Shown here in pieces: positions 1,783 to 22,023 of a stretch of DNA of 35,891 nucleotides. The stretch is taken from assembly GCF_002159335.1 (NCBI RefSeq), contig NZ_NFHP01000010.1, forward strand, positions 1 through 35,891, read 5' to 3'. Position 1 is the stretch's first letter, and the number at the start of each line of letters is the position of its first letter. The DNA comes from Collinsella sp. An7. Its GTDB lineage: Bacteria; Actinomycetota; Coriobacteriia; Coriobacteriales; Coriobacteriaceae. A program made the translations under genes and the position numbers. The notes under the pieces are model-generated. The model had not been told where the DNA came from and made no database searches. It was given only the letters and a program-made list of their open reading frames with translations.

Positions 1783-1890
1783 GGTCCCGGAGGTCGGTGC
1801 GGGGCGGGCCCGTATTGGGGCGACTCGCGAAGCGAGCCCAAAGGGCGCGGAGCCCCATTACGGGCCCGCCCCGCACCGACCTCCGGGACC
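1783..1890. repeat. Giant hairpin with conserved apex, copy 1
   Basis: Bases 1783-1814 are an exact reverse complement of 1859-1890 (32 bp). Pairing continues to 1820/1853 with one mismatch, giving about 38 bp of stem. The loop (1821-1852) contains CGACTCGCGAAGCGAG, which recurs in two other hairpins in this window. It starts 10 nt after the stop of the minus-strand hydrolase, so it may end that transcript, though no T run follows. Confidence 0.8.
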
Positions 1891-1900
1891 GGTGGGGGAG

Positions 1901-3247
1901 TTACGCGGACTGCCGAGCGCTCCACTCCCAGAGGCCTACGGGCTCGCTGTCGATCATGACGTTGGTCCCGTCGACCTCGGTGCGGCAGAAGTCGTTGAAC
2001 ACATGGATCCACACGCCGTGGTTGAAGGTCTTCTTGGGCGAGCCGTCGGCCTCGCGGTACACGCCGGTGAGGTCCTCAACGTGGTCAAAGTAGGTCAGGT
2101 GCACCGGTGCGCCGACTGCGGTGAGCGCACGGTAGAGCGGAAGCACGGTCTCAGTGGGGTCAACGAGCTCGTCGCCCTTGCTGTGCGTAAACCACAGCGG
2201 CGTTTGCGCGAGGGCGGCCACATCCTCGTCCGTCGCGTCATACCACGGCGCGCAGCAGGGCAGACCGGCCGCAAAGAAACCGGGGTAGTCGCGACACATG
2301 CGCAGCGTCATAAAGCCGCCGTTGGAAAGGCCGCCGATCACGATGCGGCTCGGGTCGATGCGGTCGGCGTGCGCGGCCACAAACTCGTCGATAAGCGCCT
2401 TGAGCGCCGCCACATAGATGCTCTGGTTGCTGTGACCGAGCTGTTCCACGCCGTTATCCATCCAAAACGTCGGGCACTGCGGCACGAGCACCCAGGCCGC
2501 GTCATCAAAGTAACGCTGGATCTTGGCGCCCGAGAGCGCCGTCACGCGATTGCCCGTATAGGCGCGCGAGGGGCCCTCCGGCACAAGCGGCCCGCCCTTG
2601 CCGGCAAGGTCAACACCTGCGCCCTCGCCCGCACCGTGCAGGTACACAATGAGTGCGCCGCGCTCGGGGACGACCTCGGGCTTGCCGAGGTTGCCGAGGG
2701 GCTGGCGGGGCTCGCGGTCAAAATCGGGCTCATAGTAGCCGTAGGCGAGCTGGATGCCATCCACCGCCTTAGACATGACGGCCTCGTGCCAGCGGTCGAG
2801 CGCCGGGCAGAGGTCGCCGTCGCTCTCGTCAAAGATAAGGCCGCTGATGGGATCGGGGTCGCCGGGCAGCTCGGCGAGGAGCGTTACGCGAAAGCGGTTC
2901 TCGATATAACGCGAGCCCATCACGCCGCCCTCGATGCGCTTGGTGAGGCGCGTCTCGGGGAGCTCGAGCGTAATAAATGAGCCGCGACGGCAACGATTGC
3001 CCGAAGCGTCTGAGGGGTAGGCGGCGCACACGGGCACGTAGCCCACGGAGGGGGAGGCGTGGTCGGCGCCGCGCTCGGCGCGCATGAGCACCTCGCCCGT
3101 GCGCTCGTAGCGCGCGCAGAAGACGTTGAAGATCTGGGGCGAGATGCCGGCCTCGTTGAGCTCCTCGGGAATCTCGAGCACAAGCTTGGATACCCAGGGG
3201 CCAAAATCTCCCAGGGTGGTAACGGTGCGGTAGTGGAGCTCTGACAT
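1901..3247 (-). CDS. Alpha/beta hydrolase (prolyl-oligopeptidase/esterase type)
   Basis: A 448-residue protein. The C-terminal half is an alpha/beta-hydrolase fold: an oxyanion segment YLHGAGEGAG, the nucleophile elbow GGLSNGGF (Ser in G-x-S-x-G), a THSKGDELVDP segment that probably carries the acid, and a late NHGVWIHVF with the likely catalytic His. The N-terminal 180 residues look like the beta-rich extension seen in some PHB-depolymerase or feruloyl-esterase-like proteins. No signal peptide is visible, so it is probably cytoplasmic. The start MSELHY fits a GAGAGGAC ribosome site. A longer frame upstream runs through the promoter and is rejected. Substrate unknown; an ester or peptide is inferred. 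It diverges from the PTS gene at 3732. Confidence 0.82.
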   Translation of the reverse strand: MSELHYRTVTTLGDFGPWVSKLVLEIPEELNEAGISPQIFNVFCARYERTGEVLMRAERGADHASPSVGYVPVCAAYPSDASGNRCRRGSFITLELPETRLTKRIEGGVMGSRYIENRFRVTLLAELPGDPDPISGLIFDESDGDLCPALDRWHEAVMSKAVDGIQLAYGYYEPDFDREPRQPLGNLGKPEVVPERGALIVYLHGAGEGAGVDLAGKGGPLVPEGPSRAYTGNRVTALSGAKIQRYFDDAAWVLVPQCPTFWMDNGVEQLGHSNQSIYVAALKALIDEFVAAHADRIDPSRIVIGGLSNGGFMTLRMCRDYPGFFAAGLPCCAPWYDATDEDVAALAQTPLWFTHSKGDELVDPTETVLPLYRALTAVGAPVHLTYFDHVEDLTGVYREADGSPKKTFNHGVWIHVFNDFCRTEVDGTNVMIDSEPVGLWEWSARQSA

Positions 3248-3273
3248 GGTCGGTCCTCTCACGTAGACAGATA

Positions 3274-3290
3274 TAAACATGTTTAGTATA
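3274..3290 (-). promoter_or_regulatory. Hydrolase promoter with palindromic operator
   Basis: On the minus strand a TATACT -10 box lies at 3290-3285, 38 nt before the start codon. Just downstream, at 3285-3274, is the perfect 12-bp palindrome TAAACATGTTTA. A palindrome covering the start point is a typical repressor site. No good -35 box is seen. Confidence 0.45.
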
Positions 3291-3571
3291 CAGAGCGGGC
3301 AGCGCGCGATTGGGTTGAACCGGTGAGCGTCGCATTTGGGGTGTTGAGTGGTTATGCCAGCACAAAGTCTTGCCCCGCCACGGCCTATCGATCGTCTGCG
3401 CAGGTACATGCAGCCCATTTGCGCTAGGCACGACCGCTGCGTCATGCCGGTTGGGCGGCATAGACAATTCCCGCATCGGGCCATACCATATACCAAAATG
3501 CCGCTAACCCACGCACCTGAGCGCCGCCGCGCCAAGCAACCGCTCTGCGTGCAAACTTGACGCAAACTTGA

Positions 3572-3602
3572 CGTTCACCTGACAATTTCGACCGTTCACC
3601 GG
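3572..3602 (+). promoter_or_regulatory. Bipartite CGTTCAC-N7-TTTCGACCGTTCACCGG site
   Basis: CGTTCAC is followed after 7 nt by TTTCGACCGTTCACCGG. The same two-part sequence, with the same 7-nt spacer, is upstream of xfp (8170-8200) and, inverted, upstream of the alpha-glucoside PTS (27488-27518). The two CGTTCAC cores are 21 bp apart, two helical turns. A shared regulator site is inferred. Confidence 0.55.
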
Positions 3603-3654
3603 ACGTCTCGCAGCTAAAGCGTCTATCGCCCGTTAGGATACAAGATGTAAACAT

Positions 3655-3676
3655 TCAGTAAACAACCGTTTACTGA
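3655..3676 (+). promoter_or_regulatory. Inverted-repeat operator before PTS gene
   Basis: TCAGTAAAC and GTTTACTGA are exact inverted 9-mers separated by AACC. The site lies between the likely -10 region and the ribosome site of the EIIBC gene, where a bound repressor would block transcription. The cognate regulator is unknown. Confidence 0.5.
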
Positions 3677-3731
3677 TCGGCAGACCGGCCGCACAGGACG
3701 GCGCCCGGCCACGGCAATGGGAGGGGACCCC

Positions 3732-5186
3732 ATGGCAGTAGATAACAAACAAATTGCCCAGAGCGTCCTAGAGCTGGTGGGAGGAGCGTCCAACGTCACC
3801 ACGGCGACGAACTGCATGACGCGCCTGCGCCTCACGCTCAAGGACAACAACCTGGCCGACATCGAGAAGATCAAGAAGGTCAAGGGCGTGCTCGGGGCGC
3901 AGTTCTCCGGCAGTCAGCTTCAGGTCATCATCGGCCAGAACGTGCCCAAGGTACTCGACGAGTTCATCGCCATCTCGGGCGTGGCGCGCGGTGTCGAGGT
4001 CAAGGAGAACCTCGACGCGCCCAAGGAGAAGATCACCCTCAAGGCCATTCCGGGCATCCTGCTCGACTACCTCTCCGGCTCCATGACCCAGCTCATCCCG
4101 CTGCTCATGGCCGGCGGTCTCTTCCGCACCATCGCGGCGGTGCTCGGGCCCACCATGCTCGGCGTGCTTTCCGACACCGACCCCACCTACACGTTCCTCT
4201 ACACCACCCTCTACGAGGCGACGTTTACCTTTATCCCCATCTACCTGGGTTATGCTGCAGCTAAGAAGATCGGCGCCAGCCCGGTGCTCGGCATGCTGCT
4301 CGGCGGCGCGCTCATGGCTCCTTCGGTGGTGAGCGCTGCGTCCGAGGGCGGCAGCGGCATCATCTCGGTCTACGGCATCCAGATTGCCGCGGCCAACTAC
4401 CAGCAGACGGTGCTGCCCATCATCCTGTCGGTGCCGGTGCTCTACTTCATTGAAAAGTTCTTCCGCAAGCACATGCCCGATGTGCTCTCCACGGTGTTCA
4501 CGCCGTTCTGCACCATGATCGTGACCATCCCCATCGCCTTCATCATCCTCGCGCCGATTGGCAACGCGATTGGTAACGTCATCGCCAACGCGCTCTTTGG
4601 CCTGGCCGACATGGGTGGCATCGCAGTCTTTGTTGTTATGGCGATCCTCGGCGCCTTCTGGCAGCTCTTCGTGGTGGCCGGCATGCACATGCCCGTCATC
4701 CTGCTCGCTCAGGTGCAGATCATCGCTGCTGGCTACGACCCGTTTGTCTTCGTCTCCACCAACTGCGCCATGACGGCCGTGTGGGGCTGCGCCTTTGGTG
4801 CGTTCCTGCGTATGCGTAACCCCGACGAGAAGGGTCTCGCCATCGGTTACGTCATCTCCGCTATCGCCGGCGGCGTGACCGAGCCCGCCCTCTTCGGCAT
4901 CCTGCTGCGCTTCCGTCGCACCATGCTCGGCATGTTCATCGGCGGTGCCATCGGCGCGGTGTTCTCCGGTATCGTGGGCGTGACCTACTACATGGCTGGT
5001 GGCGCATCCAACTTCTTGGTGTTCACCAACTATCTCCAGGGCGGTCAGATGAACACGGTCCTGGCTATCGCCGGCATGGTTATCTCCTTCGTGATCGCTG
5101 CCATCGTGGTCTACATCATGGGCTTCACCAAGGAGGAGCTCGCCGAGATGGACGAGGAGAACGAGGCCGAGCTCATCGGCGCGTAG
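3732..5186 (+). CDS. PTS EIIBC permease, glucose/glucoside superfamily
   Basis: A sugar-phosphorylating permease of 484 residues. The N-terminal EIIB domain (about 1-90) carries the phosphocysteine motif TNCMTRLRL with Cys28. The EIIC domain (about 95-475) is strongly hydrophobic with many membrane segments and contains GGVTEPALFGI, a conserved EIIC sugar-site loop. No EIIA domain is present, so phosphate must come from a separate EIIA, perhaps the one at 33032-33565. The domain order and EIIB sequence resemble the MurP/sucrose/beta-glucoside branch, but the sugar cannot be fixed. The ATG at 3732 follows GGGAGGGGAC; an ATG 15 nt earlier lies in that ribosome site. A strong terminator follows. 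Confidence 0.9.
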   Translation: MAVDNKQIAQSVLELVGGASNVTTATNCMTRLRLTLKDNNLADIEKIKKVKGVLGAQFSGSQLQVIIGQNVPKVLDEFIAISGVARGVEVKENLDAPKEKITLKAIPGILLDYLSGSMTQLIPLLMAGGLFRTIAAVLGPTMLGVLSDTDPTYTFLYTTLYEATFTFIPIYLGYAAAKKIGASPVLGMLLGGALMAPSVVSAASEGGSGIISVYGIQIAAANYQQTVLPIILSVPVLYFIEKFFRKHMPDVLSTVFTPFCTMIVTIPIAFIILAPIGNAIGNVIANALFGLADMGGIAVFVVMAILGAFWQLFVVAGMHMPVILLAQVQIIAAGYDPFVFVSTNCAMTAVWGCAFGAFLRMRNPDEKGLAIGYVISAIAGGVTEPALFGILLRFRRTMLGMFIGGAIGAVFSGIVGVTYYMAGGASNFLVFTNYLQGGQMNTVLAIAGMVISFVIAAIVVYIMGFTKEELAEMDEENEAELIGA

Positions 5187-5245
5187 GAACTCTCGCCTCT
5201 GGTTTGACCATCCTGCTGTCCGGGACGTCCTGACGGACTAAGCAG

Positions 5246-5286
5246 AAAACAGCCCCGTGCGGCAGTGCGCTGCACGGGGCTGTTTG
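5246..5286 (+). terminator. Rho-independent terminator after EIIBC
   Basis: AAACAGCCCCGTGC pairs perfectly with GCACGGGGCTGTTT, a 14-bp stem around an 11-nt loop, with A residues before and T residues after. It ends the PTS transcript about 60 nt past its stop and separates it from the glycosidase gene. Confidence 0.85.
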
Positions 5287-5372
5287 ATATACACGCGGCG
5301 GGGACGGGCCCGAGCGCTACGCCGGGTACCATGTCTTCACGGCCGCATTCGCCCACAACGAAGGGAATCGCA

Positions 5373-6674
5373 ATGGCAACTTTGGGAACGCTCGCCGTCA
5401 ACAATCGGCACGACGGCTTTACGCTCAACGGCAAGCCCTGGTTCTGGCTGGCCGATACCTGCTGGAGCGCGTTTACGAGCATCACGCTCGAAGATTGGGA
5501 TTACTATCTCGCCCGCCGCGCCGAGCAGGGTATCAACACGCTGCAGATCAACACCCTGCCGCAGTGGGACCGCTGCCGTCCCGACCTGGGCATCTACCCG
5601 TATGCGAGCGAGGATGGCACAACGTTTGACTGGTCGCGCCCCAACCCCGCCTACTGGGAGCGCGCTCGTGAGATGTGCCGCATGGTCGTGGAGCACGGCA
5701 TCCGCCCGGCGCTCGTGCTCATGTGGTGCAACTACGTGCCCGGCACGTGGGGCGCTATGATCGCCGAGCGTTTTGGCACGCCGGTGATGCCGCTCGAGGA
5801 GGTCGCCGCGCACGTGCGCCGCGTGGTTGAGGAGCTCGACGAGTTCGATCCGGTCTACGTGGTGACGGGCGATACCGATTGGAAGAGTGACGAGTGCCTG
5901 CCCTATTACGAGGCGGCGCTCGCCACGGTGTGCGAGCTTGCGCCCACGCGCCTGCGCACTATGCACATCAACCGTGCCAACCGCACCATCCCGGCGCAGT
6001 TTGTGGACCGGCTCGACTTTCTTATGTTCCAGCCGGGGCACAACGCCGGCGCGCAGGACGAGGCGTGGAAGCTGCCGGAGGACCTCGCGGCCGCCCATCC
6101 CGGCAAGCCGATGGTCAACTCCGAGCCTTGCTACGAGATGATGGGCGCAAGCCGCAACGTCTACGTGCGCTTTGGCGCCAAGGAGTGCCGCGCGAGCGCG
6201 TGGTCGGGCATTCTGGCCGGCGCCTCGGCCGGCGTGACCTACGGCGCGCACGGCATCTGGAACTGGCAGACCTCGCGCTCGGAGGGCTCGGCACTCGGCG
6301 AGGGCTTTGACGCGCCTTTCCGCTGGCAGGAGGCGCTGCAGCTTCCCGGTGTGTGGGACTTTGGGCTGATCCCGCAGGTGCTGGGCGTGCTGACGCACGG
6401 GAGCACCGACGCCGTGGAGCCCGCGCAGGACGTGCTCGACGATGCGCGCGAGGCCATCCGCGTGGCGCGCGTGGGCGAGCGGTCGGTGGCCTACCTGCCG
6501 TTTGCGACGGTGCTCAAGCTCAAGCTCGATGCCTCTCGCAGCTGGACGGCCGCCGCGTTTGACCTCGAGGGTAAGCGCGTGGCGCACCTGCCCGTGACGC
6601 CGTGCGAGGACGGCATCCGCGTGGCGCAGCACCCGTTTACCGCCGATGCGCTCGTGGTGGTGACGCCGGCGTAG
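5373..6674 (+). CDS. GH140-like (DUF4038) glycoside hydrolase
   Basis: A 433-residue protein of the apiosidase-like DUF4038 family. It opens with the family signature FTLNGKPWFWLADTCWSAF (about residues 15-33) and shows the barrel segments GINTLQINTLPQWD, ALVLMWCNYVPGTWG and KPMVNSEPCYE. The last of these carries a conserved Glu likely in the active site. The last 85 residues resemble the small beta domain (putative collagen-binding domain) found after DUF4038. There is no signal peptide, so it acts on an imported oligosaccharide or glycoside. GH140 members are known to release apiose from pectin side chains; substrate identity here is inferred only. The ATG at 5373 follows AAGGGA. It sits between a PTS permease and a LacI regulator. 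Confidence 0.8.
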   Translation: MATLGTLAVNNRHDGFTLNGKPWFWLADTCWSAFTSITLEDWDYYLARRAEQGINTLQINTLPQWDRCRPDLGIYPYASEDGTTFDWSRPNPAYWERAREMCRMVVEHGIRPALVLMWCNYVPGTWGAMIAERFGTPVMPLEEVAAHVRRVVEELDEFDPVYVVTGDTDWKSDECLPYYEAALATVCELAPTRLRTMHINRANRTIPAQFVDRLDFLMFQPGHNAGAQDEAWKLPEDLAAAHPGKPMVNSEPCYEMMGASRNVYVRFGAKECRASAWSGILAGASAGVTYGAHGIWNWQTSRSEGSALGEGFDAPFRWQEALQLPGVWDFGLIPQVLGVLTHGSTDAVEPAQDVLDDAREAIRVARVGERSVAYLPFATVLKLKLDASRSWTAAAFDLEGKRVAHLPVTPCEDGIRVAQHPFTADALVVVTPA

Positions 6675-6853
6675 CGCGAGCTGCGGCGCCGAGATGCCGA
6701 AGTGCGGGTTGCGGGCGCCGGAGGCAGACAGACAACGTGACGGCGCGCCCAAGGAGGCCTCTCTGTTCGAGGCGCTTTGACCGGTGCCTCCCCGGGACAG
6801 CTGGTCGTGCCCCGGTCGCCTTGCACAGCTCGTTTTCACATACTCGCCGTTCG

Positions 6854-6862
6854 TGCTACCGT
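6854..6862 (+). promoter_or_regulatory. Extended -10 promoter of lacI-type gene
   Basis: TGCTACCGT, an extended -10 box (TG-n-TAnnnT), lies 65 nt before the LacI start codon. The same TGCTA form recurs before other genes here (13313, 16263, 17359). No clear -35 box. Confidence 0.35.
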
Positions 6863-6926
6863 GATGGGGCGTCGTGCCGGGCCGATCGGGCCGCGCGCGG
6901 CGCCCCATCGCATGGAGGAGGCACGC

Positions 6927-7946
6927 ATGGCCAAGGTGACGCTCAAGGAGATTGCGCGCGAAGCGGGGCTGTCCGTCTCGACGGTCTCGCTCGTGCTCAA
7001 CAACCGACCGTGCCGCGTCTCGGACGAGAACCGCCGGCGCATCAAGGCCATCGCCGCGGCCAAGCGCTACGTGCCCAACCAGATCGCGCGCAGCCTGGTG
7101 ATGCAGCGCTCCGGCACGCTCGGGCTCATTGTGCCCAACATCGAGAGCCGCTTTTTCTCGCGCCTCGCCAAGAACCTCGAGCAGCGGTGCCGCGCACGCG
7201 GCTATGCGCTCTTCATCACCACCTCGGACGACCTCGCCTCGCAGGATATCGAGCTCATCTCCACCCTCGTTACCCGCGGGGTCGAGGGGCTCTTTATCGT
7301 GATGGGCAACCAGCGCGAGGGCGGCGAGGAGCTGCCCGAGCGCATTGCCGAGTGCCCCGTGCCCTACGTGATGATCGACCGCGTGCTCGACGAGCTCGCC
7401 TGCGACAAGGTGCTCTTTGATAACGAGCTGGGCGGCTACCTGGCCACGCGGCACCTGCTGGAGCACGGGCACCGGCGGATTGCGTGCATCGTCAACGCGT
7501 CGCGCTCCGAGACGGGTCGGCGGCGTCTCGACGGGTACCGCCGCGCGCTCGACGAGTTTGGCGTGACGTTTGACCAGGGGCTCGTCTTTGACTCGGACTA
7601 CTACATTCCCGCGGCGTACGAGGCGGCGGCCGGCGTGCTCGAGACGGACGCGACCGCGGTGTTCGCGAGCTCGGACAACATCGCACTCGGGCTCCTCAAG
7701 CGCCTGTACGAGCGGGGCAGCCGCGTGCCGCGCGACTACTCGGTGGTGAGCTACGACAACTCCGCGGCCGACTCGCTCTTTGAGCCGGCGCTCACGGCGA
7801 TCGATCAGGACGTTTCGGTGCTCGCGGAGGAGGCGCTCGCGCTCATGCTGCGGCGGCTCGAGGGCGGCTCAGCAGACAGCGTTGAGCCGGTGACGCGCCT
7901 TCTGGAACCGCGTCTCGTGGAGCACGCGAGCGTGCAGACGGTGTAG
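6927..7946 (+). CDS. LacI-family transcriptional regulator
   Basis: A 339-residue DNA-binding regulator. Residues 3-27 form the LacI helix-turn-helix (VTLKEIAREAGLSVSTVSLVLNN), followed by the hinge helix region and a periplasmic-binding-protein-like sensor domain starting at GTLGLIVPNI. C-terminal landmarks include AVFASSDNIALGLLKRL and VSYDNSAADSLFEPALTAIDQD. The ATG at 6927 follows a perfect GGAGGAG 6 nt upstream; an in-frame ATG 15 nt earlier is covered by that site. It lies directly upstream of the xfp promoter, which has two palindromes with the central CG typical of LacI operators. It may therefore repress xfp in response to a sugar or sugar phosphate. It could also control the glycosidase upstream. 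Confidence 0.92.
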   Translation: MAKVTLKEIAREAGLSVSTVSLVLNNRPCRVSDENRRRIKAIAAAKRYVPNQIARSLVMQRSGTLGLIVPNIESRFFSRLAKNLEQRCRARGYALFITTSDDLASQDIELISTLVTRGVEGLFIVMGNQREGGEELPERIAECPVPYVMIDRVLDELACDKVLFDNELGGYLATRHLLEHGHRRIACIVNASRSETGRRRLDGYRRALDEFGVTFDQGLVFDSDYYIPAAYEAAAGVLETDATAVFASSDNIALGLLKRLYERGSRVPRDYSVVSYDNSAADSLFEPALTAIDQDVSVLAEEALALMLRRLEGGSADSVEPVTRLLEPRLVEHASVQTV

Positions 7947-7973
7947 AGGAGCTCGTGTCGGACGCGTGGCCTG

Positions 7974-8092
7974 TCTAATAGAAGGAATCAGTCGACCCGG
8001 ACCCCGAACCCTGACTGATTCTGTCCAATAGAAAGAACCAGTCAATCCGAGCCAAGATTTCGACGGATTCTTTCTAGTAGAAGGAATCGGAC
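7974..8092. repeat. Tandem ~49-bp repeat with inverted arms
   Basis: Three related units start at 7974, 8024 and 8072 with TCTAATAGAAGGAATCAGTC, TCCAATAGAAAGAACCAGTC and TCTAGTAGAAGGAATCGGAC. The first two units also contain an inverted partner: GAATCAGTC pairs with GACTGATTC (8013-8021), and AGAAAGAA-type bases at 8030-8043 pair with those at 8062-8075. The array lies between the LacI stop and the xfp control region. It may form consecutive hairpins in the LacI 3' RNA; function unknown. Confidence 0.6.
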
Positions 8093-8169
8093 GGGGCGGG
8101 AGCGACCGGCGGGATCGGTTGCGTTGCAACCTTGGCGCTCACCCACAACACCAGTCCAAGATAAAACAC

Positions 8170-8200
8170 CGTTCATCTCCGTTTATCTACCGTTCACCGG
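8170..8200 (+). promoter_or_regulatory. Bipartite motif upstream of xfp
   Basis: CGTTCAT, a 7-nt spacer, then TATCTACCGTTCACCGG. The second part matches the EIIBC upstream site in 15 of 17 bases. An extra CCGTTTAT lies in between, so CCGTT-type cores recur every 10-11 bp, one helical turn. The ATG is 127 nt downstream, close to the 130 nt at the EIIBC gene. Confidence 0.55.
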
Positions 8201-8231
8201 TGCAAGCACGGCATTTTGACCCAAAGTTGAA

Positions 8232-8277
8232 ATAAAACGTTTTGCTAACAATGATAAAACGTTTTATCACCTATACT
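8232..8277 (+). promoter_or_regulatory. xfp promoter with twin LacI-type operators
   Basis: A TATACT -10 box at 8272-8277 is preceded by the perfect 18-bp palindrome TGATAAAACGTTTTATCA (8252-8269) and by a second copy of its core, ATAAAACGTTTTG, at 8232-8244. The central CG steps are 22 bp apart, two helical turns, so two dimers could bind the same DNA face. The first palindrome covers the promoter spacer, so binding should repress. The LacI regulator encoded just upstream is the obvious candidate. Confidence 0.75.
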
Positions 8278-8326
8278 GCTTCACATCATGCAACATAGGC
8301 CAAAGTACAAGTCAGAAGGAGCAGCC

Positions 8327-10888
8327 ATGTCGCACCCCGTGATCGGCACCCCCTGGAAGCGCCTCGACGGCGCCGTCCCCGAGCAGGAGCTCGAGGGCGT
8401 CGAGCGTTACTGGCGCTGCGCCAACTACCTCTCCGTCGGCCAGATCTACCTGCGCTCCAACCCGCTCATGCGCGCCGACTACCCCGATGCCAAGACGGGC
8501 GAGCCACGTGACTTTGGCCGCGCCGACGTTAAGCACCGCCTCGTGGGCCACTGGGGCACCACCCCGGGCATCAACTTCCTCTTTGCCCACGTCAATCGCC
8601 TCATCGCCGACCACGGTCAGAGCACGATCTTCCTTATGGGTCCCGGTCACGGTGGACCGGCCGGTACCGCGCAGAGCCTGCTCGACGGCACCTACCGCGA
8701 GATTCGCCCCGACATCACCAACGATGAGGCCGGCTTGGAGAAGTTCTTCCGCCAGTTCTCGTACCCCGGCGGCATCCCAAGTCACTATGCGCCCGAGACC
8801 CCCGGGTCCATCCACGAGGGCGGCGAGCTCGGCTACACGCTCTCTCACGCCTACGGTGCGGTGCTCGACAACCCGAGCCTGTTCGCCGTTGCCGTGGTGG
8901 GTGACGGTGAGGCCGAGACGGGGCCGCTCGCCACAAGCTGGCAGTCCAACAAGCTCGTAAACCCCGCCACCGACGGCATCGTGCTGCCGATTCTGCACCT
9001 CAACGGCTACAAGATCGCCAACCCCACCATCCTCGCGCGCATCTCCGACGAGGAGCTCGAGCAGTTCTTCCGCGGCATGGGCTACGAGCCGCATTTCTTT
9101 GTGGCGGGCTTTGACGACGAGAGCCACGAGTCCATCCACACGCGCTTTGCCGCCCTTATGGAGGAGGTCTTTGGCAAGATCTGCGCCATCAAAGAACGCG
9201 CTGCTGCGCAGGCGGCTGCCGGCGAGGAGGTCACCCGCCCGGTCTACCCCATGATCGTCTTCCGCACGCCTAAGGGCTGGACCTGCCCCAAGACCATCGA
9301 CGGCAAGAAGACCGAGGATTCGTGGCGCGCGCATCAGGTGCCGCTGGCCTCGGCCAAGGATACCCACGAGCACTTCCGCGTGCTGCGCGGCTGGCTCCAG
9401 TCCTACAAGCCTGAGGAGCTCTTTACTCCCGAGGGCGCTGTCCGCCCCGAGGTGACGAGCTGGATGCCCACCGGCGACCTGCGCATCGGCGCCAATCCCA
9501 ATGCCAACGGCGGGCGCGTGCGCGAGGAGCTTGTGCTTCCCGACATCCACGCCCACGAGGTGCCCGTGGCCGAGCGCGGGCACGGCTACGGCCAGACCGA
9601 GGCCGCGCGCGTCTTTGGCGCTTACACCGCCGACGTGCTGGCGGCCAACCCCGAGAACTTCCGTATCTTCGGACCGGACGAGACCGCCTCGAACCGCCTG
9701 CAGGACGCCTATCAGGTCACCAAGAAGCAGTGGGAGGCGGGCCATTACGCCGACGAGGCCAACGACGAGCTGCTGGCGCCTTCGGGCAAGGTCATCGAGC
9801 AGCTCTCCGAGCATCAGTGCGAGGGCTTCCTCGAGGCGTACGTGCTCACCGGCCGCCACGGCGTGTGGTCGAGCTACGAGAGCTTCGTGCACGTGGTCGA
9901 CTCCATGGTCAACCAGCACTGCAAGTGGCTCGAGGCCACCAAGCGCGAGATCCCGTGGCGCAAGCCCATCGCAGGCCTCAACATCTTGCTGTCGAGTCAC
10001 GTGTGGCGCCAGGACCACAACGGCTTTAGCCACCAGGACCCGGGCTTTATCGACCTTTTGCTCAACAAGGCCAACGACACGCACATCGTCAATGCCTACT
10101 ACCCCTGCGACGCCAACATGGCGCTCGCGGTGGCCGAGCGCGCCTACCAGTCGACCGACTGCGTTAACGCCATCTTCTGCGGCAAGCAGCCGGCGCCGAC
10201 CTTTGTGACCGTCGACGAGGCCAAGGACGAGCTTGCCGAGGGCCTGGCCACCTGGGCGTGGGCGAGCACGGCCGAGACGCTCGACGAGGCCGACCTGGTG
10301 ATCGCCACCTGCGGCGACGTGCCCACGCTCGAGGCGCTGGCCGCCGTCGACCTGCTGGGCGAGCAGGGCATCAAGGTGTGGTTTGTGAACGTGGTCGACC
10401 TGCTCAAGATTCAGAACGCCTGTGAGAACGATCAGGCGATCAGCGACGAGCGTTTTGCCGAGCTCTTTGGCACGGGTGAGAAGCCGGTGCTCTTCTGCTT
10501 CCACGCCTACGCGGGCACTATCCGTCGGCTCATCTGGGCGCGCCCCGGCCACGACGCCTGGTGCGTGCACGGCTACGAGGAGAAGGGCTCCACGACCACG
10601 CCCTTTGATATGCTCCGCCTCAACAACATGGACCGCTGGGCGCTTGCCGCCGAGGCGTTGCGCCTGGTGGACGCCGCTTCTGGTGCTGCCGCGGGTGCGG
10701 GCGCGCATGCCGAGCAGGCTGCCGACTGGGATGCTTTCCGCGAGGAGGCCTTCCGCTTTGCCGTGGAGGAGGGCTACGACCACCCGGCCTTCACCGACTG
10801 GGTGTGGCCCGAAGCGCGCGCCGCGACCGAGGCCGATGCTGCAGCCGGGCTCTCTGCCACCCAGATGACCGCCGGCGACAACGAATAA
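8327..10888 (+). CDS. xfp: Xylulose-5-P / fructose-6-P phosphoketolase
   Basis: An 853-residue thiamine-diphosphate enzyme that splits xylulose 5-phosphate (and usually fructose 6-phosphate) to acetyl phosphate plus glyceraldehyde 3-phosphate or erythrose 4-phosphate. Visible signatures include [17 protein letters not shown], the [24 protein letters not shown] segment (quoted in two parts by family as [15 protein letters not shown] and HEGGELGY), and the cofactor motif [14 protein letters not shown]. Later come [18 protein letters not shown] and the C-terminal RLNNMDRW. Length is slightly above the usual 800-830 because of an Ala-rich stretch near the end. The ATG at 8327 follows AGAAGGA. The gene is monocistronic and under the twin-operator promoter; acetyl phosphate can yield ATP via acetate kinase. 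Confidence 0.95.
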
Positions 10889-10898
10889 GGTGGGCTTC

Positions 10899-10922
10899 CC
10901 GGGCACCGCATGAGGTGCCCGG
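10899..10922. terminator. Small hairpin after xfp
   Basis: CCGGGCACC and GGTGCCCGG form a perfect 9-bp stem with a 6-nt loop, 10 nt past the xfp stop. There is no T run, so it may protect the 3' end more than stop transcription. Confidence 0.55.
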
Positions 10923-10924
10923 TC

Positions 10925-11014
10925 GCCCCGACCTCCCCGGACGTCCTCCCGCGCTCGGCGGCCTGCGGCCTCGCTTCGCGACTCGCGCTGGAGAACAACC
11001 GGGGAGGCCGGGGC
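10925..11014. repeat. Conserved-apex hairpin, copy 2
   Basis: Bases 10925-10940 pair with 10999-11014 (16 bp, one mismatch). Between them lies GCGCTCGGCGGCCTGCGGCC followed by TCGCTTCGCGACTCGCGCT (10951-10989). This inner sequence is the reverse complement of the apex of copy 3, while the stems are unrelated. Confidence 0.75.
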
Positions 11015-11070
11015 GCGCCGTTGCTCGGAGGACGGCTTACAGACAGATTCCCTACGATATGGCGCGTGGT

Positions 11071-11114
11071 CTTCTACCGTTTACCGGCTCTAGGAGCCGC
11101 CAAGGCGGTAGAAG
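11071..11114. repeat. Nested hairpin in xfp downstream spacer
   Basis: Outer arms CTTCTACCG (11071-11079) and CGGTAGAAG (11106-11114) enclose inner arms CGGCTC and GAGCCG. Function unknown; the left arm includes ACCGTTTACCGG, one base different from the second half of the bipartite promoter motif. Confidence 0.45.
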
Positions 11115-11191
11115 GCCGCCTGTCGCATCGTCACAGTTTTCGTCCGGAGAGTTCGCAGCAGAAAAAGACGTGTGGATTCCGTTAGAAAGCA

Positions 11192-11232
11192 AACGCCTCT
11201 ACCTGTGTGGAAAAAGCACAGGTAGAGGCGTT
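11192..11232. terminator. Likely bidirectional terminator
   Basis: AACGCCTCTACCTGTG and CACAGGTAGAGGCGTT form a perfect 16-bp stem with a 9-nt A-rich loop, followed by TTCTTCT on the plus strand. It lies between the convergent xfp and carboxypeptidase genes and could stop both. Confidence 0.65.
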
Positions 11233-11284
11233 GTTCTTCTATGGCAATCAGCGTGTAACCCCGTCGAAGCGCCGTTTCCCCTGT

Positions 11285-11324
11285 GTGCTTCTAAACCCGT
11301 TGGAGCCAACGGGTTTAGAAGCAC
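11285..11324. repeat. Perfect 19-bp palindromic hairpin
   Basis: Bases 11285-11303 (GTGCTTCTAAACCCGTTGG) are the exact reverse complement of 11306-11324, with a 2-nt centre. It lies directly beside copy 3 of the large conserved-apex hairpin. Confidence 0.65.
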
Positions 11325-11328
11325 GGCG

Positions 11329-11420
11329 CGTCGGGGTGGGCGGCGGTCGGTCTCGGCGCGAGTCGCAAAGCGAGGCCGCAGGCCGCCGAGCGCAGAGACC
11401 GACGGCCGCCCACCCCGACG
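11329..11420. repeat. Conserved-apex hairpin, copy 3
   Basis: Bases 11329-11354 pair with 11395-11420 (26 bp, one mismatch). The 40-nt apex begins GGCGCGAGTCGCAAAGCGAG and continues GCCGCAGGCCGCCGAGCGC, matching copy 2 in inverse. It starts 30 nt past the stop of the minus-strand carboxypeptidase. Confidence 0.8.
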
Positions 11421-11450: not shown

Positions 11451-12965
11451 CTACAGCCCGTACAGCTCAGTGAACTTCCGTACCAGGTAATCGCAGTAGT
11501 ACGTGGCATCAAACGGCGCGCCGCATGCAGCCTCGATGAGCTCGGGCGCGTCCTTGCCGCGGCCCCAGCGCCAGATGCGGCTTCCAAGCCACGCGCGCAC
11601 CGGAGCGAGGTCGCCCGCCGCGCAGGCTGCGTCCACGTCCACCCCGTCGCGCGCCATGGCGGCAACGTACTGCGCACCGTAGGCACTGCCGAGCGCGTAG
11701 CTCGGGAAGTACCCAAAGTCCCCACCCGACCAGTGCGTGTCCTGCAGGCAGCCGAGCGTGTCGCTCGGCACCTCGATCCCCAGATAGCGCTGGGTGAGCT
11801 CGCGCCAGAGACCGGGGATGTCGGCCGCTGTGGCCTCGCCCGCAAAGAGCGCGCGTTCAATGTCGTAGCGGATCATGATGTGCAGCGGGTAGGTCAGCTC
11901 GTCGGCCTCCATGCGGATGAGCTGCGGACTGGCGATGTTGGCGGCGCGGTAGAGATCGTCTTCCGAGACGCCGCCGTACACGTCGGGTGCATGGCGGCGA
12001 AGCACCGCAAGGAGCGGGCCGGCAAAGGCGCGCGACCGGCCGACGATGTTCTCAAAAAAGCGGCTCTGGCTCTCGTGGATGCCCATCGAGGTGCCCGAGC
12101 CGAGGATGCCGTAGCCATAGGCCGGGTCGATGTTCTGCTCGTAGATGGCGTGACCGCCCTCGTGGAGGATGGAGAAGACGTTGGAGAGCGCGTCGGTCTC
12201 GTAGATGTGCGTCGTCACGCGCGCGTCGCCGGGGGCAAAGCCGTCCGAGAACGGGTGCTCGACCTCACCGAGCGAGGTGCCAGCCATGTCGAGCCCCTCG
12301 AGCTCGAGCAGGTCGCGGGCGATGGCAAGCTGCGCGTCGTGGCCCACGCGGGCGCTGCGGAAGGCATACGCGGGCTCGGGGCGCTGCGAGATCTCCTGCA
12401 CGAGCGGCACCACGGCCTCGCGCACCTGGACAAAGAAGGCGTCGTACGACTCTGCGCTCATACCGCGCTCGTACTGGTCGAGGCAGACGTCGTAGGCGTC
12501 GCGCGTGGGGTCGAGGAGCGCGGCGCGGTGCTTGAGCGTCTCCACGATGCGGGTGACGTACGGCTCAAACGAGGCCCAGTCGTCGGCGAGTTTGGCACGG
12601 TGCCACACGGCGTTGGCCTCGCTCGTAAGGCGCGACCAGGCGACCTCCTCCTCGGTGGGGATGGCGCGGGCTTCGCGCTGGTCGCGGGCGAGCACACGGA
12701 GCTCCGTGGCGGTTTGCTCGTCGAGCTCGCCGGCAGCGGCGGCCTTCTCGAGCGCGGCGACGAGCTCCACGGCGGCCGGCCCGGTGAGAAGCTCGTGCTG
12801 CTCGCCGGCGAGTGCGCCCATGGCCTCGGCCCGGGCGGCGGCGCCCTTCTCGGGCGCGGCGGTCTCGCCGTCGTAGTCGAGGATACTCATGAGGTAGCGC
12901 TTTTGCCACAGCTTTCTCTGGAGGTCTTTGAACGAGGAGACGAGCTGCTCGGTGGTGCTGGCCAT
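11451..12965 (-). CDS. M32 metallocarboxypeptidase
   Basis: A 504-residue zinc carboxypeptidase of the M32 family (thermostable carboxypeptidase 1 type), expected to remove C-terminal residues from peptides in the cytoplasm. The metal motif HEGGH is at residues 268-272, followed by the family motifs GTSMGIHESQSRFFEN and RMEADELTYPLHIMIRYDIE, and HPFSDGFAPGDARVTT just before. Length is normal for the family. The start at 12965 (MASTTEQL) follows AAAGGAG; a longer frame upstream is low-complexity and rejected. It faces xfp across a 560-bp hairpin-rich spacer. Confidence 0.93.
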   Translation of the reverse strand: MASTTEQLVSSFKDLQRKLWQKRYLMSILDYDGETAAPEKGAAARAEAMGALAGEQHELLTGPAAVELVAALEKAAAAGELDEQTATELRVLARDQREARAIPTEEEVAWSRLTSEANAVWHRAKLADDWASFEPYVTRIVETLKHRAALLDPTRDAYDVCLDQYERGMSAESYDAFFVQVREAVVPLVQEISQRPEPAYAFRSARVGHDAQLAIARDLLELEGLDMAGTSLGEVEHPFSDGFAPGDARVTTHIYETDALSNVFSILHEGGHAIYEQNIDPAYGYGILGSGTSMGIHESQSRFFENIVGRSRAFAGPLLAVLRRHAPDVYGGVSEDDLYRAANIASPQLIRMEADELTYPLHIMIRYDIERALFAGEATAADIPGLWRELTQRYLGIEVPSDTLGCLQDTHWSGGDFGYFPSYALGSAYGAQYVAAMARDGVDVDAACAAGDLAPVRAWLGSRIWRWGRGKDAPELIEAACGAPFDATYYCDYLVRKFTELYGL

Positions 12966-13379
12966 AGGGCTCCTTTGCGGTCGGGGCGCGCGGACGGGTG
13001 CCCGCGGCGCCGGGGGATGGATCTGGCTGGGGCCATGGTACCGCGTGGCCGGCGACCGGGCAAAAGCGGGGCGAGCGGGCAGGGGAGGGCGGCGCACTCG
13101 GGTTGCCCGGCATGGCGCAGGTGCCGCCGACGCCACCCTGTGCGTCGTCGTTCTGTTGGCTGCGGTCTTTTCGTCAGCCCTCTGACGCTAGTTATCGCCC
13201 CGCTCGCCCCCCCCCTCGTGAGCAGCGCCTCGGCCGCTCCTCCCCAAACTATCTCAATAATTTGAACGATTGACGGATTTACGCCATATGTCAGTAACCC
13301 TCTCTACGCCCGTGCTAGGATGATGCGCCGCTGCGGCCGTTCGGTCGCGTCTACCAGCTGCAACCCCGAAAGGATTCTC
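12966..13379. other. Divergent spacer, carboxypeptidase / Ntn hydrolase
   Basis: A 414-bp GC-rich gap. It must hold the carboxypeptidase promoter on the minus strand, which I cannot place. A C9 run lies at about 13207-13215. On the plus strand TGCTAGGAT at 13313-13321 is a likely extended -10 box for the next gene. No coding sequence or RNA gene is recognised. Confidence 0.4.
13313..13321 (+). promoter_or_regulatory. Extended -10 promoter
   Basis: TGCTAGGAT lies 59 nt upstream of the Ntn-hydrolase start and matches the TG-n-TAnnnT form. No convincing -35 box. Confidence 0.4.
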
Positions 13380-14543: not shown

Positions 14544-14553
14544 TGCTCGGTAT

Positions 14554-14627
14554 GGGTCAGTTGGGGACGTGTTCCGTCTGACCTATCTTCAAAAATGGTG
14601 CAGACGGAACACGTCCCCAATTGACCC
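14554..14627. repeat. REP-like hairpin, 27-bp arms
   Basis: Bases 14554-14580 pair with 14601-14627, differing only by one G-T wobble. The arm includes TTGGGGACGTGTTCCGTCTG. It starts 10 nt after the Ntn-hydrolase stop. The form suggests a repetitive extragenic palindrome; possible use as a 3'-end stabiliser is inferred. Confidence 0.7.
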
Positions 14628-14641
14628 ACGTAACGACGCAT

Positions 14642-16131: not shown

Positions 16132-16195
16132 CCGGTACAAAGGGACGGGGGCATTGTGCTGAGGTCGGTACAATGCCCCCGTCCCACTGTACCGG
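16132..16195. repeat. REP-like hairpin, 26-bp arms
   Basis: Bases 16132-16157 pair with 16170-16195 with two mismatches. The arm includes AAAGGGACGGGGGCATTGT. It follows proC by 28 nt. It resembles the 14554 hairpin in position and in its GGGACG-rich arm, though the sequences differ. Confidence 0.65.
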
Positions 16196-21874: not shown

Positions 21875-22023
21875 GTCAACTCGAGCTGGAAAACTGTGTA
21901 AGAATGGTGCATTGCTGAGTAGAGGCCTCATGTGCTCTGCAAAAACCGCAGGTAAACGCTTTGCCTATATTTTGGATACTCGACACGCTCCGGTTCTTAC
22001 ACAGTTTTCCGGCTCGAGTTGAC
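21875..22023. repeat. 149-bp palindromic element (MITE-like) in hyp cluster
   Basis: Bases 21875-21904 pair with 21994-22023: 30-bp terminal inverted repeats with one mismatch, starting GTCAACTCGAGC. The interior (about 90 bp) is AT-richer than neighbours and has no gene. There is no clear target duplication. It sits between hypF and hypC, where closely packed genes would be expected, so it probably inserted there. Confidence 0.7.

Follow-up and report, generated by a model that had tools for sequence, protein, structure and literature searches.

A dispersed palindrome family at gene edges in Coriobacteriales, with a conserved branched tip on variable stems

The DNA analysed here (the window; 35,891 nt of Collinsella sp. 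An7) is contig C2 of an 18-contig, 2.37-Mb genome. It contains three long palindromes, each located 10-35 nt beyond a stop codon: that of an alpha/beta hydrolase-like gene, a phosphoketolase gene and an M32 carboxypeptidase gene, respectively (Table 1). A preliminary description of the window had placed these palindromes just past gene ends and given them a common apex, with one base varied in copies 1 and 3 and an extension in copies 2 and 3. All three palindromes were found where it had placed them, and its account of the apex proved right to the base. The core of the tip reads CGACTCGCGAAGCGAG in copy 1, CGAGTCGCGAAGCGAG in copy 2 and CGAGTCGCAAAGCGAG in copy 3, and the GGCCGCAGGCCGCCGAGCGC extension is common to copies 2 and 3. 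The varied base of copy 1 is one half of a compensated pair change at tip positions 3 and 28, from G-C to C-G, and the RNA minimum free energy fold of this tip is a three-way junction.

Several other repeats are present in the window. An ISL3-family insertion sequence, at which contigs break, occupies its left end. Because this element is 100% identical to one in G005, compared with about 77-88% identity in orthologous genes, the sequences suggest a recent transfer. Further to the right are a dispersed repeat with about 10 partial matches (72-97%) elsewhere in the same genome, and an inverted repeat unrelated to the tip family.

Table 1. Palindromes, neighbouring genes and other repeats of the window, with the loci of two further tip families. 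Positions refer to the window unless a locus (L) is named.
Feature	Position	Strand	Details
ISL3-family insertion sequence	1-1567
Copy 1 palindrome	1783-1890	+	arms 1783-1821 and 1852-1890 (39 bp), tip 1822-1851; covariance model 87.3 bits
Copy 1 tip	1822-1851	+	GA / pair 3-28 / hairpin TCGC-GAA-GCGA / hairpin GCCC-AAA-GGGC / GC / GA
Alpha/beta hydrolase-like gene (EstA Ig-like N-terminus)	1901-3565	-	stop 10 nt from copy 1
Canonical terminator-like hairpin	5247-5285
Dispersed repeat	7971-8118
Phosphoketolase (XFP) gene	8288-10888	+	stop 35 nt before copy 2
Copy 2 palindrome	10924-11015	- (tip)	arms 10924-10954 and 10985-11015, tip 10955-10984; 81.1 bits
Canonical terminator-like hairpin	11192-11232
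Copy 3 palindrome	11329-11420	+	arms 11329-11359 and 11390-11420, tip 11360-11389; 77.4 bits
M32 carboxypeptidase gene	11451-13136	-	stop 30 nt from copy 3
Long hairpin with GGGGACG-type sequence	14553-14628
Long hairpin with GGGGACG-type sequence	16132-16195
Inverted repeat	21875-22023		near-perfect, 30 bp, 89-nt spacer
Family B, own genome	L120:10870-11259, L124:7291-7414, L128:2702-2789, L133:8041-8181, L136:4867-4992
Family C, own genome	L125:7766-7893, L134:11611-11738		site-1 orthologues in G003, G002 and G007

With up to two mismatches to the apex core allowed, a genome search gave 32 places, as against five for a reversed control pattern, and most of the 32 are the tip of a long hairpin whose stem is different each time. 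A covariance model was subsequently built from 17 copies of the own genome, including the three of the window, whose model scores are accordingly by construction; the earlier apex-core search is independent of the model. The genome search proposed in the preliminary description, done with this model, yielded 26 copies (E from 2e-17 to 9e-6, the weakest being 8.5e-6), mostly at gene edges. The palindrome family (family A below) is thus far above chance. An enrichment between convergent genes was considered and dropped, as 9 of the 26 copies compared with 45 of 190 gaps gave no clear difference.

Eight congeners carry 0-3 copies each, versus 26 in the own genome. In a sister family of the order, copies were found in 23 of 101 genomes, with a maximum of 18. 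The named matches with hairpins are Atopobiaceae (Olsenella, Thermophilibacter), and three other matches of the same scan, in unrelated taxa, are without a long stem. The window sites of the congeners examined have no such hairpin, except for site 1 in G003, G002 and G007, where a related hairpin with the tip of another family (C, below) is present. The patchy copy number and the genome-specific tip variants suggest that the element has spread. No published description of the palindrome family was found by a literature search, the scope of which lay outside repeat libraries such as ISfinder. A text search of the literature with the tip sequence returned only short stretches, in three papers with titles unrelated to repeats, and a search for the skipping-rope and similar named RNA motifs gave nothing usable. 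Rfam scans with copies of tip families A, B and C gave sub-threshold matches only, mostly of microRNA models on the long stem.

The tip is a 30-nt three-way junction, in which two mini-hairpins with three-base loops, mostly GNA, stand above tandem GA/AG mismatches. Its pattern is GA-N3-[TCGC-GAA-GCGA]-[G(N)CC-GNA-GG(N)C]-GY-N28-GA, enclosed by a pyrimidine-purine stem pair, with pair 3-28 being G-C in most copies, C-G in three (copy 1 of the window included) and A-T in others. Tips from other genera have a longer hairpin B with a second tandem GA/AG motif. Among 19 tips from other genera, 94.3% of the cells are paired and 38 cells carry double changes, as against 13.1 in shuffles, and none of the slid versions of the structure comes close. 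In these tips pair 3 and its partner are CG in 8, AU in 6 and GC in 4; a hairpin A pair is GC in 13 and AU in 6; and two hairpin B pairs are GC in 12 and AU in 5, and CG in 17 and UA in 2, respectively. Many pairs of the same 19 tips are invariant, and the measure of further pair types showed no excess over shuffles. The junction is returned by RNA folding; DNA parameters give it as well, except that the isolated pair 3-28 is missing, and one of the four folds is different. That the full junction is predicted better by RNA than by DNA energy parameters counts against the explanation we prefer below.

Both the sequence and the structure of the tip are conserved, whereas the stems, mostly 20-44 bp long, are preserved chiefly for their pairing. 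Among the 17 own copies, 95.5% of the cells are paired, and 22 of the 30 pairs in the whole structure, or 21 of the 22 in the main helix, have changed on both sides; the structure was derived from the same 17 copies, and slid controls fall to 36-45% paired. The preliminary description had gone further, calling the stems unrelated and suggesting that they are kept only for pairing. They do differ from copy to copy, and pairing is what is kept, as seen across the genome and at orthologous sites of other genera. However, a weak shared pattern is present: mean arm identity in the own genome is 57.8%, compared with 52.0 ± 0.9% for shuffled arms, and positions 7-12 from the tip form a recurrent pyrimidine tract (76% pyrimidine in the own genome, 89% in others). 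Arms that keep this tract would be under some sequence constraint or simply kin by descent, which also counts against the explanation we prefer below. Copies with the same stems, which had been named as the sign of a plain repeat family, are seen only faintly, as a few pairs 76-84% alike, such as L033/L037 (84%) and L038/L052 (76%). Flanks are kept in a subset of nine copies of G084 sharing the left flank, in which mean identity is 91% for the tip, 82% for the flank (biased upward, the subset having been chosen by flank) and 69% for the arm (52% for shuffled arms). Conserved ends bounding a unit are found in this subset and are weak or absent elsewhere.

Orthologous sites form a natural time series for stem turnover, tip inversion and deletion. 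Genera g52 and g40, and most of the g18 genomes examined, keep a hairpin just upstream of hisF, which the other genera looked at lack; G101 and most g52 genomes have a second copy, in the opposite orientation, after hisA. The hisF comparison omits G086, G144, G126, G157, G093 and G056, whose rows were mis-framed. Between G142 and G133, the hisF start is 97% identical and the tip 98%, while 9 of the 20 stem pairs are unchanged and another 9 have changed on both sides. Between G112 and G135, 19 of the 20 stem pairs are the same and the tip is inverted. What had looked like a tip inversion between G101 and G074 at hisF was discarded, as G074 appears to have retained the copy on the hisA side. Several genomes have another conserved site, in frame within the final codons of tatA and ahead of tatC. 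Most tips at these two sites, ahead of hisF and within tatA, are in the sense orientation. G048 at tatA and G126 at hisF are without the hairpin and look like deletions with arm remnants. Palindromes of this length are deletion-prone, and their long retention at hisF and tatA suggests a cellular function and not only a selfish repeat.

Stems held by selection at the RNA level should favour G.U pairs. Under an even pairing rule, the stem mismatches comprise 53 GT and 44 AC, without G.U preference, and those in mRNA orientation beside stops comprise 8 GU and 15 AC. An apparent G.U excess (46 vs 21) came from a pairing rule that favoured G.U and was discarded. A U-tract after the hairpin was not found, mean T being 0.27 over 14 nt in 28 stop-proximal copies. 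The missing G.U preference, together with the tip inversions, argues against maintenance of the stems at the RNA level. In two papers, template switching is described as homogenising inverted-repeat arms and inverting spacers (PMC8604942), and as maintaining hairpins (PMC8794818). Arm homogenisation and spacer inversion are what is seen here too, although the hairpins in those papers are unrelated to one another, whereas ours are a family with one conserved spacer. Given that G.U preference and U-tract are lacking, and that tip inversion and arm homogenisation are the two known products of template switching between inverted repeats, maintenance of the stems at the DNA level is favoured, and pairing may be kept by copying instead of selection.

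We propose that the palindromes are a dispersed family of gene-edge DNA elements in Coriobacteriales, with stems maintained at the DNA level and the branched tip as the putative recognised part, a proposal that we judge to be evenly poised between right and wrong. The arms would be complementary mostly since template switching during replication (quasipalindrome correction) copies one of them from the other, and such arm-to-arm copying would also explain the tip inversion and the fast drift of the stems. The tip would escape the copying and be held by selection because a putative protein recognises it in its folded, single-stranded form, which would serve either the spread of the element or some function at gene ends. 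It counts against this proposal that neither a mobilising enzyme nor a tip-binding protein was identified in this analysis. A bolder form of it, which we put forward tentatively, is a new class of recognition element, in which the branched single-strand tip would be read by a putative dedicated protein at gene boundaries and the stem would be continually rewritten by arm-to-arm copying. If this is true, structure is inherited and sequence is not.

The orientation of the copies bears on what may read the tip. In the own genome (G000), a hand count of copies within 50 nt of the nearest gene boundary gave 13 with the 3′ end of the element facing the boundary versus 2. This rule was drawn post hoc in G000 and then tested on G101, G145, G106 and G084, where the counts are 19 vs 1 within 50 nt and 13 vs 9 beyond, based on home-made GC3 gene calls and on copies that are not fully independent within one genome. 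The close boundaries in the four test genomes are nearly all stop codons, so the tip is antisense beside stops. A bias in transcription strand over all own-genome copies, judged against the gene whose stop is nearest, was looked for and rejected (11 sense, 12 antisense). The fixed orientation at boundaries speaks for a strand-specific event at gene edges; beside stops, an orientation-blind DNA element would not be expected to show it, which weighs against the proposal above.

The same orientation would suit an RNA element at transcript edges, which would be co-transcribed with the adjacent gene and form its long stem in the mRNA, an alternative we hold to be unlikely. An RNA-binding protein or nuclease would then bind the tip (its complement beside stops) and set the 3′ end or separate cistrons, which seems no likelier. 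The antisense tip past stops (19 of 20 in the test genomes and about 10 of 12 close copies in the own genome), the place beside hisF kept across three genera, and the RNA minimum free energy fold being the junction are all in keeping with it. However, G.U is not favoured over A.C on either strand, the tip of G112 is inverted on the same stem relative to G135, and the mostly sense tips at hisF and tatA mean that different strands would be read. Neither is there a U-tract or an Rfam match, and some copies sit between divergent genes.

It is also conceivable, if rather improbable, that the palindrome is a purely selfish mobile element (MITE/REP-like), whose tip is the site of a transposase or nuclease and whose orientation reflects a preference for insertion at gene edges. 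The patchy copy number, the tip subfamilies specific to genomes, the G084 subset with conserved flanks and the in-frame position in the disordered end of tatA would all fit such an element, but its retention at hisF in three genera would not, nor would the tests of mobility. No transposase is linked to it: among 24 Y1 loci, a single family-A match was found, adjoining a short Y1 gene of IS200 type in G106, and the Y1 locus of the own genome has no family-A copy within about 1.5 kb. RAYT was rejected as the mobiliser, several Y1/RAYT genes adjoining a different hairpin type. A transposon interior between paired copies was likewise rejected, the interiors being unrelated. Viral contigs gave no exact match to two tip patterns, and flank counts show no strong conserved 5′ foot, with the stems varying.

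Two long hairpins with GGGGACG-type sequence occur in the window; in related genomes, similar hairpins are found flanking several Y1/RAYT genes (e.g. L300, L303, L304), so that the two look like the RAYT-associated repeats here. In G106, most of a family-A hairpin is tandemly duplicated beside itself on contig C60 (L206).

That the copies are a plain old repeat family, one ancestral element everywhere with merely mutated stems, is very improbable. The arms being 58% identical, the common pyrimidine tract and the L033/L037 pair are what it would predict, yet at an orthologous site the stems change far faster than the tip and the neighbouring coding DNA, and both sides of the stem change together. 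Shared ancestry by itself does not account for this, though such ancestry is compatible with our DNA-level proposal. Ordinary Rho-independent terminators with an unusual loop, suggested by the GC-rich stems just past stops, are hardly credible, since the stems reach 20-44 bp without a U-tract and carry a conserved 30-nt branched loop, copies also occur upstream of hisF and inside a CDS, and the window has separate, canonical terminator-like hairpins.

Recognition of dispersed bacterial palindromes normally relies on stems or ends that are conserved. REP/BIME elements (RAYT, TnpA_REP) are dispersed and intergenic, lie just past stops, often in inverted pairs, and form a structured single strand, and in all these respects family A resembles them. 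REPs keep the sequence of stem and foot, whereas family A keeps the tip and varies the stem, and the RAYT genes here adjoin another hairpin type. Rickettsia palindromic elements lie in frame inside protein genes, as do the copies at the end of tatA, but are conserved in sequence across the whole element and not in the tip only. The double-hairpin elements of fungal mitochondria are mobile and GC-rich and show compensatory stem changes. We know of no conserved three-way-junction tip in these elements or in yeast GC clusters. The likeness to both is that of mobile GC-rich hairpins, in different genomes; the GC clusters are treated as mobile DNA in one paper (PMC4478555).

Family A is thus the reverse of ordinary repeats, its branched tip being conserved and its stem fast-evolving yet paired. 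With it, the idea that template switching alone can keep long chromosomal hairpins becomes directly testable, which bears on whether compensatory changes by themselves prove a selected structure. The way in which copies face gene boundaries, in turn, points to a specific and testable recognition event.

Two further tip families were encountered. Family B (GAGTTCCGCAG, a variable inner hairpin, CGAGGACTGTCCGA) also has a constant tip and a variable stem, and is found in G002 (L071) in addition to the own genome. Family C consists of GTGTTTCCCGCAG, an inner hairpin and CGAGGACCAC. Between the family-C hairpins of G003 and G007, two species about 95-97% identical nearby, the tip is inverted and the inner stem is rewritten.
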